Assembly (NCBI GenBank): GCA_947632715.1
Contig: CANRQF010000006.1
Location: 1 to 40,173 of the forward strand
Source of the DNA: an uncultured Bacilli bacterium
Lineage (GTDB): Bacteria; Bacillota_I; Bacilli_A; RF39; UBA660
Direction: 5' to 3'
Length of the DNA stretch: 40,173 bases
The notes under the pieces are model-generated. The model searched no databases. It had not been told where the DNA came from and saw nothing but the letters and a program-made list of their open reading frames with translations. Position numbers and translations under genes: made by a program. Shown here one piece after another: positions 4,674 to 40,173 of the stretch; positions within the stretch are counted from its first letter, which is position 1; each line of letters opens with the position of its first letter.

Positions 4674-6248
4674 ATGAACAATCAATTTTCAGAAAATTTA
4701 AAAAGAATTAGAAAGGAACAAAATCTTTCACAAGAACAATTAGCATTTGAACTAGGAGTATCAAGACAAGCTATATCAAAATGGGAATCAGGAGTAGCTT
4801 ATCCTGAAATGGATAAAATCATTGCTTTATGTAATAAATTTGATTTAAATATAGATGATTTATTACATAAAGATATAAAAGAGATTAAAGGTGAAGAGGA
4901 AAGTAAAAAGAAATTAAACAAAACAATAGATGACTTTTTAAAATTTATAACTGATACAGTTAATTTATTTAGTAATATGAATTTTAAAAGTAAAATTAAA
5001 TGTTTAATTGAACAAGCAATTATTATCATTATATTTTTTGGTATCTTTTATGCAGTTGTTAATATTGGTCATATTGCATTGTTTGATTTACTAATAATTT
5101 TACCTAATAAAATTCAACTATTTATAAATCACTTTTTAACATATGTTTTAGCACTATTGTGTTTTATAGTATTATTCGTTATATTTATCCATATATTTAA
5201 AACTAGATATTTAGATTATTATGAAAAATTAAAAGAAAGTGTTAATAAAGAAAATATTAATATAGAAAAATCTAATGTTGAAGATAATATAGATAAGCAA
5301 GAAAAAATTGATAATAAAAATAAAATTTTATTTAGAAAAAATGAAAATAAAATAATAATTAGAGATCCTAAACATAGTGAATATAAATTTATAAATAGTT
5401 TATTTAAATTCATTATAACTATAATTAAATTTTTTGCTCTATGTTTAGCATTCTTTGTTTGTGGTATGTTAATATTATTATTTATTAGTTTTATATTATC
5501 ATTTTTAGTTTTTAAAACTGGTTTATTCTTTTGGGGATTACTTACTACCATTGTATCATCAATAGTAATTATTACGATAGTGTTATTAATAATATTAAAT
5601 TTTGTCTTTGATAGAAAAAATAACAAGAAAAAAATTATTTGGAGTTTTATAGTATCATTAGCTTTCTTTGGATGTGGGATTGGTCTTATATTAATTGGTA
5701 CTCTTAATTTTAATATTATGAATAATAATGAATCAATGTTAAAAACTGTAACATTTGAATATGATATGAATGAAGATACATTCTTTAATTTATATGATAG
5801 TTATATTGAATATGTTGAAACAGATATTGATAATATAAGAGTTGATTATAAAATTAATAAATATTGTGAATTATATAATGATGAGGATGAAAGATATAGC
5901 ACTGGGATTCAGGCTTGGACTTATTGTTCAAATCCACTTAAATTAATAAAAGAATTTATAAAAAATATAAATAATAAAAAGATAATTCCTATAGATAGTG
6001 AAGTAAAAGTTATTGTTTATGCTTCAAAAGATAATATAGAAAAATTAAAAAGTAATAGAGAAAAACATTTTAAAAATGAACAAACAAATATGAATCAAAT
6101 AATTTATTATCAACTTAAAATTGATGAATTGGAAAACAAACTTGCAAATTATGAAATTGAATTTTCTGAATATGAAGATAAAATTGCTGAACTTAATTTG
6201 CAAATACAAGAGTATAAAGAAATAATAGATTCTTATGAATGTGAGTAA
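4674..6248 (+). CDS. Large XRE-family membrane regulator with coiled-coil C-terminus
   Basis: This 524-residue protein has an XRE HTH at residues about 5-62 (LSQEQLAFELGVSRQAISKW). Membrane segments lie near 112-138, 152-175, 245-282, 285-312 and 322-345. A charged cytoplasmic-type loop (about 178-240) separates the first pair from the rest. Residues 350-455 form an extramembrane domain with an aspartate/tyrosine-rich start. A heptad-like coiled coil closes the protein (about 465-520: YYQLKIDELENKLANYEI region). The ATG follows AAAGGAG. It stands alone between the MazG-like gene and the MATE exporter. The HTH is typical of gut Firmicutes membrane-bound regulators; the C-terminal domain is not recognised. 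Signal and targets unknown. Confidence 0.85.
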   Translation: MNNQFSENLKRIRKEQNLSQEQLAFELGVSRQAISKWESGVAYPEMDKIIALCNKFDLNIDDLLHKDIKEIKGEEESKKKLNKTIDDFLKFITDTVNLFSNMNFKSKIKCLIEQAIIIIIFFGIFYAVVNIGHIALFDLLIILPNKIQLFINHFLTYVLALLCFIVLFVIFIHIFKTRYLDYYEKLKESVNKENINIEKSNVEDNIDKQEKIDNKNKILFRKNENKIIIRDPKHSEYKFINSLFKFIITIIKFFALCLAFFVCGMLILLFISFILSFLVFKTGLFFWGLLTTIVSSIVIITIVLLIILNFVFDRKNNKKKIIWSFIVSLAFFGCGIGLILIGTLNFNIMNNNESMLKTVTFEYDMNEDTFFNLYDSYIEYVETDIDNIRVDYKINKYCELYNDEDERYSTGIQAWTYCSNPLKLIKEFIKNINNKKIIPIDSEVKVIVYASKDNIEKLKSNREKHFKNEQTNMNQIIYYQLKIDELENKLANYEIEFSEYEDKIAELNLQIQEYKEIIDSYECE

Positions 6249-33275: not shown

Positions 33276-34004
33276 ATGAATAATATGGGTAACTTTATAA
33301 AAAGTTTAAGAGAAGAAAAAAATTGGACACAAGAAGATTTAGCAAATAAAGTTTGTTATAGTAGAGAAGCTGTATCGAAATGGGAACGAGGAAGATGTGA
33401 ACCCGATATAGAAGTGCTAAAAAAATTAAGTACATTATTTGATGTTAAAATAGAAGAGTTAATTGCAGGAAAGAAAAATCCCAAAGAAGAAAGTGTAGCA
33501 GTTAATTTATATACTAAAAATAGTGTTATTAAAAAGAAATTAAAAATAGTTATAACTATATTAATTTTAATTGTATTTTTAATATTTACTTTTATCTTTG
33601 CATCTTACTATGTTAAAGAGTATCGCTCAGTTAATATATATGATATGTATGGAGTTGGTAAAAGTTACAATGTAAGTAATGGTTTAATTACAAAAACCAG
33701 AGATAGAATATGTATAAAATTTGATTTAGTATCTAATTATGGCACTAATAATATGAATAATAAAATTACAAAAATTGAGTTATATTATAAAAATAATAAT
33801 CAAGATATATTATTAAATACTGAATATGTTAACGATACATTTATTATTGACAAAGTTAATAATGATAATTTAATTGACTTTAAAAATTTTGATAATTATG
33901 TAAATAATTTTTATATTAGACTTTATTTAAAAAGTGATATTATTGAAGATATTAAATTAAGAATTGAAGATACTATTATTAATGATTCAGTAATATATAG
34001 GTAA
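33276..34004 (+). CDS. XRE-family regulator with single membrane helix and outer domain
   Basis: This 242-residue protein has an XRE HTH (about 5-62: WTQEDLANKVCYSREAVSKW), one helix (about 88-112) and a 130-residue extracytoplasmic domain. The topology is that of a one-component transmembrane sensor. AGAGG lies 8 nt upstream of ATG 33276. It is the third of four membrane-linked XRE proteins in the window. Signal and targets unknown. Confidence 0.86.
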   Translation: MNNMGNFIKSLREEKNWTQEDLANKVCYSREAVSKWERGRCEPDIEVLKKLSTLFDVKIEELIAGKKNPKEESVAVNLYTKNSVIKKKLKIVITILILIVFLIFTFIFASYYVKEYRSVNIYDMYGVGKSYNVSNGLITKTRDRICIKFDLVSNYGTNNMNNKITKIELYYKNNNQDILLNTEYVNDTFIIDKVNNDNLIDFKNFDNYVNNFYIRLYLKSDIIEDIKLRIEDTIINDSVIYR

Positions 34005-35997: not shown

Positions 35998-37464
35998 ATG
36001 AATCAAGAAAAAATAGGAAAATTTATTGCGGAATGTCGTAAAGAAAAAAAGTTAACTCAAGAGAAGTTAGCAGAAATTTTAGGAGTTACAGAAAAATCAA
36101 TAAGCAATTGGGAAAATGGCCGAAATATGCCTGATCTTACTTTGTTTAAACCATTATGTGAAGCATTAGGTATAACCATTAATGAACTTTTAAGTGGAGA
36201 AGTAATAGATAATAAAGATTATCAAAATAAATTTGAAGAAAATGTTATTAATACCATAAATTATAATAATAATAAAAATAGTAAAGTAAAAGAAATAATG
36301 GGTATTATTTTACTAATTTTAGGTATCTTATTTGTTATATGTGGTTTTGCTATTTTTAAAAGTGAAAGTAGTTTTAGTACCATTTTTATTGTTCTAAGTG
36401 CTGTTTTTATCTGGACCGGATTAATTCAAATAACTAATAAACTAAAATATTTAAAAAAAATATTAATCTCTTCTTTAGTATTTATTACTTATTTATTTGT
36501 TATCTTTTTTGTTGATTACTTAGCAGTTTTACACAATAATATTCCCCCAAGACTAAATTACGAAAAAGAATATTATGATAATATGATTATTTATAAAAAT
36601 CCTTTTTATAATGTTTTTAGAATTAATAAAGATACTTCTATGGAATATTATTTAATAGATTTAAAGAAAGAATATAATAAAGATAATGTTCCTATATCAT
36701 TATTTAATCGTAATAAATCAGGTATAGATAATATTATAAAGTATAAATATAAATATTTTAATAATCAAAGTAATACTAATAATTTAATTAAAGATTTACC
36801 AATGGGTGAATATTTTAAGGAAGCTGAATATGATAATGACAATAGTAGATTAACTATTAATTATGAACTTACTGATTATCAAATTGATTATAATTTTAAA
36901 GCTACATTTCTTTATAATATCGTTTCTTTATTTTCTTTACTTGATAATTTAGAATATATTACTATTAATGTTAGTGATTTTAGAGGATTAGAAGATATTA
37001 CTATAACTATTGATAGAGATACAATATATAATAATTATTATGGCTTTAAATATATCATTAGAAATGGAATAGATAAATATTATTTTAATGAATTTTTAGA
37101 GAAAAAATTAAATGATTATTATTTTGTAACAGATACTTTTAAAACTTTAATAATGGATACAGCCTTTGATAAAACAGTTAAAATAGAATCAGTTATTTAT
37201 AAAGATGAAGAATTTGAAGTAATAAAAACAATTAATGATTCAGATACTTTAAATAAAGTATTAAATATCTTAAGATCAAGTAATGCGATTCCAAATGGTT
37301 CACTTATTACTTTAGAGGGATCTAACTCATCAATCTATTTATATAATAGTGATAATGAAATAGTTTTAAAATTAAGATTATATAGTTTAACTAATTGTTT
37401 TGGTATTTCAGGAAAAGAATATTGTATGGATAATAAAGATGAATTTTATTCTTATATAAATTAA
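35998..37464 (+). CDS. XRE-family membrane regulator with large outer domain
   Basis: This 488-residue protein has an XRE HTH (about 5-62: LTQEKLAEILGVTEKSISNW), then helices near 99-120, 125-145 and 153-178. An outer domain of about 310 residues with Tyr/Asp/Asn-rich strands follows. Its start MNQEKIGKFI is nearly identical to the XRE gene at 781, but the membrane and C-terminal parts differ, so the DNA-binding module may have been shuffled between genes. TGGAGAAG lies upstream of the ATG. Fourth member of the set; signal unknown. Confidence 0.85.
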   Translation: MNQEKIGKFIAECRKEKKLTQEKLAEILGVTEKSISNWENGRNMPDLTLFKPLCEALGITINELLSGEVIDNKDYQNKFEENVINTINYNNNKNSKVKEIMGIILLILGILFVICGFAIFKSESSFSTIFIVLSAVFIWTGLIQITNKLKYLKKILISSLVFITYLFVIFFVDYLAVLHNNIPPRLNYEKEYYDNMIIYKNPFYNVFRINKDTSMEYYLIDLKKEYNKDNVPISLFNRNKSGIDNIIKYKYKYFNNQSNTNNLIKDLPMGEYFKEAEYDNDNSRLTINYELTDYQIDYNFKATFLYNIVSLFSLLDNLEYITINVSDFRGLEDITITIDRDTIYNNYYGFKYIIRNGIDKYYFNEFLEKKLNDYYFVTDTFKTLIMDTAFDKTVKIESVIYKDEEFEVIKTINDSDTLNKVLNILRSSNAIPNGSLITLEGSNSSIYLYNSDNEIVLKLRLYSLTNCFGISGKEYCMDNKDEFYSYIN

Positions 37465-38884: not shown

Positions 38885-38913
38885 TTGACACTTTCGATTT
38901 GGTAAGATATAAT
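38885..38913 (+). promoter_or_regulatory. Promoter of the DUF5305 gene
   Basis: TTGACA (38885-38890), 17 nt, TATAAT (38908-38913). It resembles the promoter at 40103-40130: both begin TTGACACT and end ATATAAT. Confidence 0.75.
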
Positions 38914-38961
38914 TATTATTGAGATATAGTAGATTAAATGAATAATAAGGAGTTAGTAATT

Positions 38962-40059
38962 ATGGATAATAATGAAATTAATAATAACGAAAAAGCTTTA
39001 GAAACAAAAGAAAACAAATCATACTTTAGTTATAATATGAGAATTACTATATATGTAGTTTTGTTCCTTATAAGTTTTATAAGCTGTTTAGTTGCAGCTA
39101 AATATTCTTTTGAATACAATGATGCTTTAGAAGTTGATTATAGTGAAAATCAAAATATTGATTATAAAGTATATTTAAAAGAAAATGAATTTTATGAAGA
39201 AGAATATTTAGGAAAGAATATGCTATATGTAGCAAGTTTAATAGATAGAATAGATGTTAATTTGAATTATGATTTTAAAATTGCTAAAGAAATAAATTTA
39301 GATTATGAATATAAAATAGTAGGTAACCTTGTTATTAAAGATAGTAATAACCAAAAAACATTTTTTACTAAAGAATATGTGTTAAAAGAACCAAATAAAG
39401 GTAAGATAAACAAAGATGAATTTAACATTAATGAAAATGTTGAAATAGATTATGGTTATTATAATAGTTTAGCTAATAGTTTTAAAACACAATTTGGAGT
39501 AGATACAACAAGTTATTTAGAGGTTGCTTTAGTAATAAATAAAGATAGTTCTAAAGATATTGTTCCAATAAATGATACAAGTAATGTAATGATTAGTATT
39601 CCATTATCTGAAAAAGCAATAGATATTAAATTCCAATCTCAAGATGCTAGTATTATAAGAAAAGCTGTTGCAGATAAAAAATTAGAATTTAATAGTGCTG
39701 TTTTTATAGTAGAAGTTGTACTATTGATAATTTCAGTAATCTTAATAAAGAGAATAATTGAATTATTATCTTTATTATCAACTAAAAAAAGTAAATATGA
39801 TAGTTATTTAGAAAAGATATTAAAAGAATTTGACCGTTTAATTGTGGAAACTACAACTGGTATTAATGAAAATAAAAGTCATGTAATATATGTTCATAAA
39901 TTTGAAGAATTATTAGATGTAAGAGATACTTTAAAAGTGCCAATCATGTATTACAATATAGTTAAACATCAAAAATGTTACTTCTATGTAAAGAATAACA
40001 ATGATGTATACTTATTAAAATTAAAAGCCAGTGATATGGAATTAGATAACGATAAATAA
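38962..40059 (+). CDS. DUF5305 membrane protein
   Basis: This 365-residue protein has one helix near 25-48, an outer domain of about 200 residues (DYKVYLKENEFYEEEYLGKN, YVASLIDRIDVNLNY: the DUF5305 pattern), a second helix (about 248-270) and a cytoplasmic tail. ATG 38962 has AAGGAG 9 nt upstream; an earlier in-frame ATG (38938) lacks one. DUF5305 genes are often near signal peptidase genes; here the following gene is cut off. Function unknown. Confidence 0.82.
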   Translation: MDNNEINNNEKALETKENKSYFSYNMRITIYVVLFLISFISCLVAAKYSFEYNDALEVDYSENQNIDYKVYLKENEFYEEEYLGKNMLYVASLIDRIDVNLNYDFKIAKEINLDYEYKIVGNLVIKDSNNQKTFFTKEYVLKEPNKGKINKDEFNINENVEIDYGYYNSLANSFKTQFGVDTTSYLEVALVINKDSSKDIVPINDTSNVMISIPLSEKAIDIKFQSQDASIIRKAVADKKLEFNSAVFIVEVVLLIISVILIKRIIELLSLLSTKKSKYDSYLEKILKEFDRLIVETTTGINENKSHVIYVHKFEELLDVRDTLKVPIMYYNIVKHQKCYFYVKNNNDVYLLKLKASDMELDNDK

Positions 40060-40062
40060 TTA

Positions 40063-40093
40063 AAAAATTGCAATTCACGTAGCAATTTTTTAT
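40063..40093 (+). terminator. Intrinsic terminator
   Basis: Stem AAAAATTGC / GCAATTTTT (9 bp) with a 10-nt loop and further T, after the DUF5305 gene. Confidence 0.78.
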
Positions 40094-40102
40094 TGTAAAT
40101 TA

Positions 40103-40130
40103 TTGACACTCGGGGGGGGTATTATATAAT
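40103..40130 (+). promoter_or_regulatory. Promoter with a G8 tract in the spacer
   Basis: TTGACA (40103-40108) and TATAAT (40125-40130) are 16 nt apart. The spacer contains eight G in a row (40112-40119). Gain or loss of one G would set the spacing to 17 (optimal) or 15 (weak), a classic phase-variable layout. It drives the gene starting at 40156. Confidence 0.8.
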
Positions 40131-40155
40131 TATTTATATAAAATAAGAGGTCAAT

Positions 40156-40173
40156 ATGTATAATAAGAGATAT
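40156..40173 (+). CDS. Start of a further gene (cut by window end)
   Basis: An ATG (40156) with AAGAGG upstream opens MYNKRY and runs off the window. It is 26 nt downstream of the -10 element of the G8 promoter. The product cannot be identified. Confidence 0.5.

Follow-up and report, generated by a model that had tools for sequence, protein, structure and literature searches.

The window analyzed here is an entire contig of 40,173 nucleotides (C6) from a 1.23-Mb metagenome-assembled genome (MAG). Pattern scanning of its last 1.4 kb recovered only 2 perfect (12/12) promoters, that of a DUF5305 gene and a second one that carries 8 consecutive G residues (G8) in its spacer. The features of this region are the following:

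38885–38913, plus strand: ordinary promoter of the DUF5305 gene, with a 17-nt spacer and without a G tract, which provides an internal control
38938–40059, plus strand: DUF5305 gene (PF17231, E = 1.3e-8), upstream of the G-tract promoter
40061–40092, plus strand: hairpin with a T-rich 3′ arm, directly 3′ of the DUF5305 stop codon (z = −2.8)
40097–40173, plus strand: start of a conserved cassette of promoter and 5′ gene part, 77 nt identical to the end of contig C87
40103–40108, plus strand: −35 box TTGACA (sequence and promoter pattern scan)
40112–40119, plus strand: G8 homopolymer in the promoter spacer, the proposed slippage tract, separated from the −35 box by CTC and from the −10 box by TATTA
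40125–40130, plus strand: −10 box TATAAT, spacer of 16 nt (sequence and promoter pattern scan)
40145–40150, plus strand: AAGAGG, ribosome-binding-site-like (sequence reading)
40156–40173, plus strand: first 6 codons (MYNKRY) of a putative surface-protein gene of family A, the rest being cut off by the contig end

The ATG at 40156 lies 25 nt past the −10 box of the G8 promoter. On re-reading of the sequence, the coordinates, the 16-nt spacer, and the consensus TTGACA and TATAAT hexamers of the original prediction were all correct, as were the perfect hexamers and the 17-nt spacer of the sister promoter of the DUF5305 gene. The hairpin is probably a terminator between the DUF5305 gene and the G-tract promoter; a stricter scan called no terminator at this position, and Rfam yielded no RNA element near the G-tract promoter. 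Elsewhere in the window, 4 genes (781–1284, 4674–6245, 33276–34001, and 35998–37461) appear by eye to have XRE-type helix-turn-helix-like starts. The tract had been singled out for its rarity in AT-rich DNA. It is the single run of 6 or more G in the window and is thus uncommon, but this is not decisive, as the number of G6 matches in the window (3, overlapping) was reached by 7 of 100 dinucleotide shuffles.

The contig ends 54 nt past the tract, within the exact 77-nt overlap with C87, so that the window includes just 6 codons of the downstream gene and shows the tract at the assembler’s dominant length alone; assemblers typically leave such an exact overlap at a contig end when they are halted by a repeat. 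The start of the cassette recurs in near-identical form in contigs C32, C48, and C83. Complete homologs of the downstream family A gene on C32 and C83 encode proteins of 823 and 915 aa, respectively, which are near-identical over their first ~320 residues and then diverge, and one of the two has a C-terminal Laminin_G_3/concanavalin-like domain. Family A gene bodies that lack their 5′ start are located on C88, on C20, and at the end of C32. DNA identity between C32 and C83 is below 0.5 upstream, 0.99 from the promoter on, and drops after ~1 kb, so that the promoter and the constant 5′ part of the gene constitute one cassette.

Distribution of G-tract promoters in the genome and among relatives

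The 1.23-Mb genome contains 13 tracts of at least 7 G (G7+), of which 12 (11 G8 and 1 G9) are simple repeats lying between a −35 (TTGAC) and a −10 (TATAAT) element, the lone exception being a G7 on C28. A reversed control pattern gave no match in this genome and 1 match across 60 genomes. This genome-wide concentration in promoter spacers, taken with the reversed control, is the decisive test that the tract is real. Rather than a one-off, the G8 tract of the window belongs to a promoter cassette that is present in dispersed copies. An extra, decayed copy with G6 and a 13-nt spacer is located on C49.

The G-tract promoter pattern was matched by 26 of 37 genomes of the genus, one of them (G025) through a chance G5 only, with up to 40 such promoters per genome. 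A class-wide sample of 395 genomes added 9 matching genomes from other genera of the same family, with up to 42 promoters in one of them, and single matches in 5 other families. The matches bearing names belong to uncultured Bacilli represented by MAGs from rabbit (“Lapin”). None of the viral contigs scanned contained the promoter, and there is thus no sign of phage carriage.

Natural controls point to the tract as an add-on to some genes, in agreement with the original prediction. On C4, 3 tandem genes of another family (family C) have a G8 promoter with a 16-nt spacer, whereas the fourth family C gene is preceded by TTGACA-17-TATAAT without a G tract. In G001, G002, G004, and G021, a DUF5305-like gene adjoins or overlaps a family A homolog with no G-tract promoter between them, whereas in the window the hairpin and the G8 promoter are inserted between the 2 genes. 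The C4 array (G000:C4:23500-34500) also holds repeated fragments of other genes between its family C genes, one of ~81 aa with CxxxCxxC-like cysteines, suggesting that a larger unit may have been duplicated repeatedly. The promoter flanks, which are of CTC, CC, or CT type, are uniform within each genome and differ across G003, G006, G010, G012, G017, G024, and G034; even where G012 and G006 are 90.6% identical upstream, the flanks are of CC and CTC type, respectively. The uniformity per genome suggests concerted evolution or cassette replacement.

Tract length, spacer length, and downstream genes

We tabulated 337 G-tract promoters from 20 genomes. Their G runs comprise 5 (2 promoters), 6 (4), 7 (22), 8 (231), 9 (73), and 10 (5) residues. 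Length varies on constant flanks among paralogous copies within genomes: in G034, where the flanks are identical in 38 of 40 promoters, there are 1 G6, 7 G7, 22 G8, 6 G9, and 2 G10 tracts; G003 has 12 G8 and 13 G9; and 6 tandem adhesin-like genes of G035 have near-identical promoters with G8, G9 (4 copies), and G10. Indels restricted to the homopolymer, with constant flanks around it, are the signature expected of slippage. Comparison of orthologous loci gave few clean pairs, among them G024 and G012 (upstream flank 70% identical) with G9 and G8, respectively; the remaining pairs had equal tract lengths or different flank types. G6–G8 tracts are considered mutable and those longer than G7 hypermutable (PMC4235727). 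With G8 in the window and G5–G10 in relatives, the tracts reach mutable length (at least 6–8 G), and G8 is placed at the mutable/hypermutable border of the published scheme (PMC4235727). The window genome encodes MutS1, so switching of G8 may be slow; with MutS1 present, loss of mismatch repair as the driver of slippage is not supported.

Spacer lengths are concentrated just below the usual optimum. Among the 337 promoters, the spacer is 15 nt in 132, 16 nt in 168 (300 of 337 at 15–16 nt), 17 nt in 13, shorter in 18, and longer in 6, and the mode is 17 nt in none of the 20 genomes. By comparison, the 33 ordinary perfect-hexamer promoters without a tract in the window genome have spacers of 17 (17 promoters), 18 (9), 16 (5), and 13 nt (2). 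A spacer of at least 17 nt is thus found in 1 of 12 G-tract promoters versus 26 of 33 ordinary promoters (Fisher P = 3e-5, a value that overstates independence because the promoters of one genome are copies related to one another). The 1 exception, a G9 promoter on C37, is the only 17-nt copy in the window genome. A repeat between −10 and −35 is known to act on a 17/18-nt optimum (PMC4235727).

For other genera, 46 promoters were listed, in which the choice of the −35 element is sometimes uncertain; the spacer is 16 nt in 14, 18–20 nt in 22, and 17 nt in none. For the adhesin-like genes of G035, the likely −35 element is a TTGACA located 10 bases further upstream, which gives spacers of 18, 19, and 20 nt. 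These 6 genes (G035:C4:1-26000), encoding surface proteins of ~1140–1260 aa, each have a G8, G9, or G10 promoter, and the spacer of the G8 copy (18 nt) is the closest to the optimum. Some tract promoters of G035, G140, G242, and G351 have apparent spacers of 18–20 or 12 nt; the former would require a G to be lost, not gained, and the latter may use another −35 element.

The genes behind G-tract promoters probably encode membrane or secreted proteins in each case checked. In a survey of 8 genomes, an N-terminal hydrophobic segment was present in all 74 readable downstream ORFs, compared with 17 of 42 window genes under the same rule; the protein families differ between species, and it is from these segments that surface exposure of the products is deduced. 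An AlphaFold model of one downstream protein, computed without an alignment, had a mean pLDDT of 47.5, too poor for use. Behind the 17-nt G9 promoter on C37 lies a gene for a SipW-like signal peptidase (NF046067, E = 6.8e-33, below the model cut-off; TIGR02228, above the cut-off). The cluster around this promoter (G000:C37:5500-11237) encodes 2 signal peptidases of the SipW-like type, together with several proteins that are putatively secreted.

Proposed spacer switching, alternative explanations, and known systems

The best explanation of these observations, and one we consider likely, is a slippage-driven spacer switch (phase variation) of a sigma-70/sigma-A type promoter. Replication slippage would add or remove one G, shifting the spacer within about 14–18 nt. 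In the window copy, G8 gives 16 nt, one below the genome’s usual 17, which would be restored by G9. Cells of one population would consequently transcribe the downstream surface-protein gene with unequal strength, and each of the multiple promoters of a genome would vary independently. Promoters usually tolerate a 16-nt spacer, and G8 may therefore be dim instead of off. The original reading of the tract as a putative phase-variation switch fits the length-variable copies, the spacers off 17 nt, the membrane or secreted products, and the sister promoters that lack a tract; we infer the switching itself, and likewise frequent slippage within populations, control of expression by spacing, and a benefit from surface variation.

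The strongest competitor, although an unlikely one, is that a shared regulator, coordinating a surface-protein regulon, binds the G tract or uses it as a structural element, changes in tract length being tolerated noise. Such a role would suit a tract common to the SipW-like signal peptidase gene and to putative secreted proteins, and 2 further observations run counter to switching: the length mode is strongly G8, which is the consensus at 11 of the 12 G7+ promoters of the window genome, and the tract on the coding strand is always G, whereas C tracts, expected to slip equally well, were found in no promoter spacer of the 37 genomes searched. Spacing alone does not explain this strand bias, for which a regulator or DNA-structure role may be responsible; shared descent of the cassette could be another cause. 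On the other hand, the tract is a plain homopolymer that contains no palindrome, and its length ranges from G5 to G10. Moreover, the gap to the −35 box measures 0, 2, 3, or 5 nt and the gap to the −10 box 8, 5, or 3 nt; the tract moves against both elements by as much as 5 nt while the spacer total is held at 15–16 nt, which favors spacing over a fixed protein-binding site.

Less probable still is a passenger role, in which the tract slips but has no selected function and was carried along when a cassette of promoter and gene was recently amplified. The homogenization of flanks within genomes (CTC, CC, or CT) and the sharp onset of copy identity at the promoter are in keeping with such an amplification. 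However, a G tract with comparable spacing off the optimum recurs in several genera, within flanks of different design and ahead of unrelated families, and persistence of G8 in AT-rich DNA would be unlikely without selection. An artefact of assembly or sequencing, suggested by the termination of C6 inside a repeat, as Illumina data also show at phase-variable tracts (PMC4235727), retains almost no probability. As regards the existence of the tract it is already refuted, since the same promoter lies inside contigs C4 (3 copies), C32, C37, and C83, each time between a unique upstream flank and a complete gene, and has been assembled in many other MAGs too.

Spacer switching by slippage may also have a stricter form, which we find doubtful: the cassette, copied to dozens of dispersed loci and held just off the optimum at nearly all of them, would then make up a slippage-based system of near-exclusive expression. 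Each genome would strongly express one or a few surface proteins at once, from a repertoire that includes the SipW-like signal peptidase gene.

The porA tract of Neisseria meningitidis is located between −35 and −10. Like the window promoter, porA (poly-G) and opc (poly-C) of this species have a promoter homopolymer ahead of a surface-protein gene; both undergo transcriptional switching by tract length (PMC4235727), and in opc a change between 11 and 12 C alters expression (PMC3447861). The Neisseria cases concern single genes, each with a tract of its own, in a Gram-negative organism, whereas here one promoter type occupies up to ~40 loci; furthermore, porA and opc are phase-variable, whereas for the window-type promoters, known here from their sequences, switching is the proposed behavior. 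In Mycoplasma hyorhinis, a poly-A promoter switch is found at all vlp genes, which encode surface lipoproteins, and in M. mycoides, dinucleotide repeats in the promoter spacer switch the vmm surface lipoprotein genes (PMC10502178). The vlp genes offer the likeness of a paralogous family with a common switch, but vlp and vmm rely on A or dinucleotide repeats, whereas the present set has G tracts at dispersed loci, several unrelated protein families, and MutS. The tracts of Campylobacter jejuni are mostly inside reading frames rather than in promoter spacers. As here, poly-G tracts are numerous in its genome, with high switching rates tied to absent mismatch repair (PMC4235727), in contrast to the presence of MutS1 in the window genome. 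Judged by their anatomy, the G-tract promoters belong with promoter-spacer repeats of the porA/vlp/vmm type.

A literature search, with most subscription papers outside its coverage, yielded no account of phase variation at poly-G promoters in these Bacilli. The mechanism is already known elsewhere; what appear to be new are the lineage, the scale, and the shared cassette. Compared with the known cases, one promoter type is reused genus-wide at dozens of scattered loci, in front of several unrelated protein families and with a spacing just off the optimum. If the proposed switch is real, the slippage-controlled promoters of these uncultured gut bacteria would form one of the larger sets of their kind, and dozens of surface-protein states would be readable from tract lengths in existing metagenomes. 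The avoidance of 17-nt spacers supplies a testable rule as to which genes are on.
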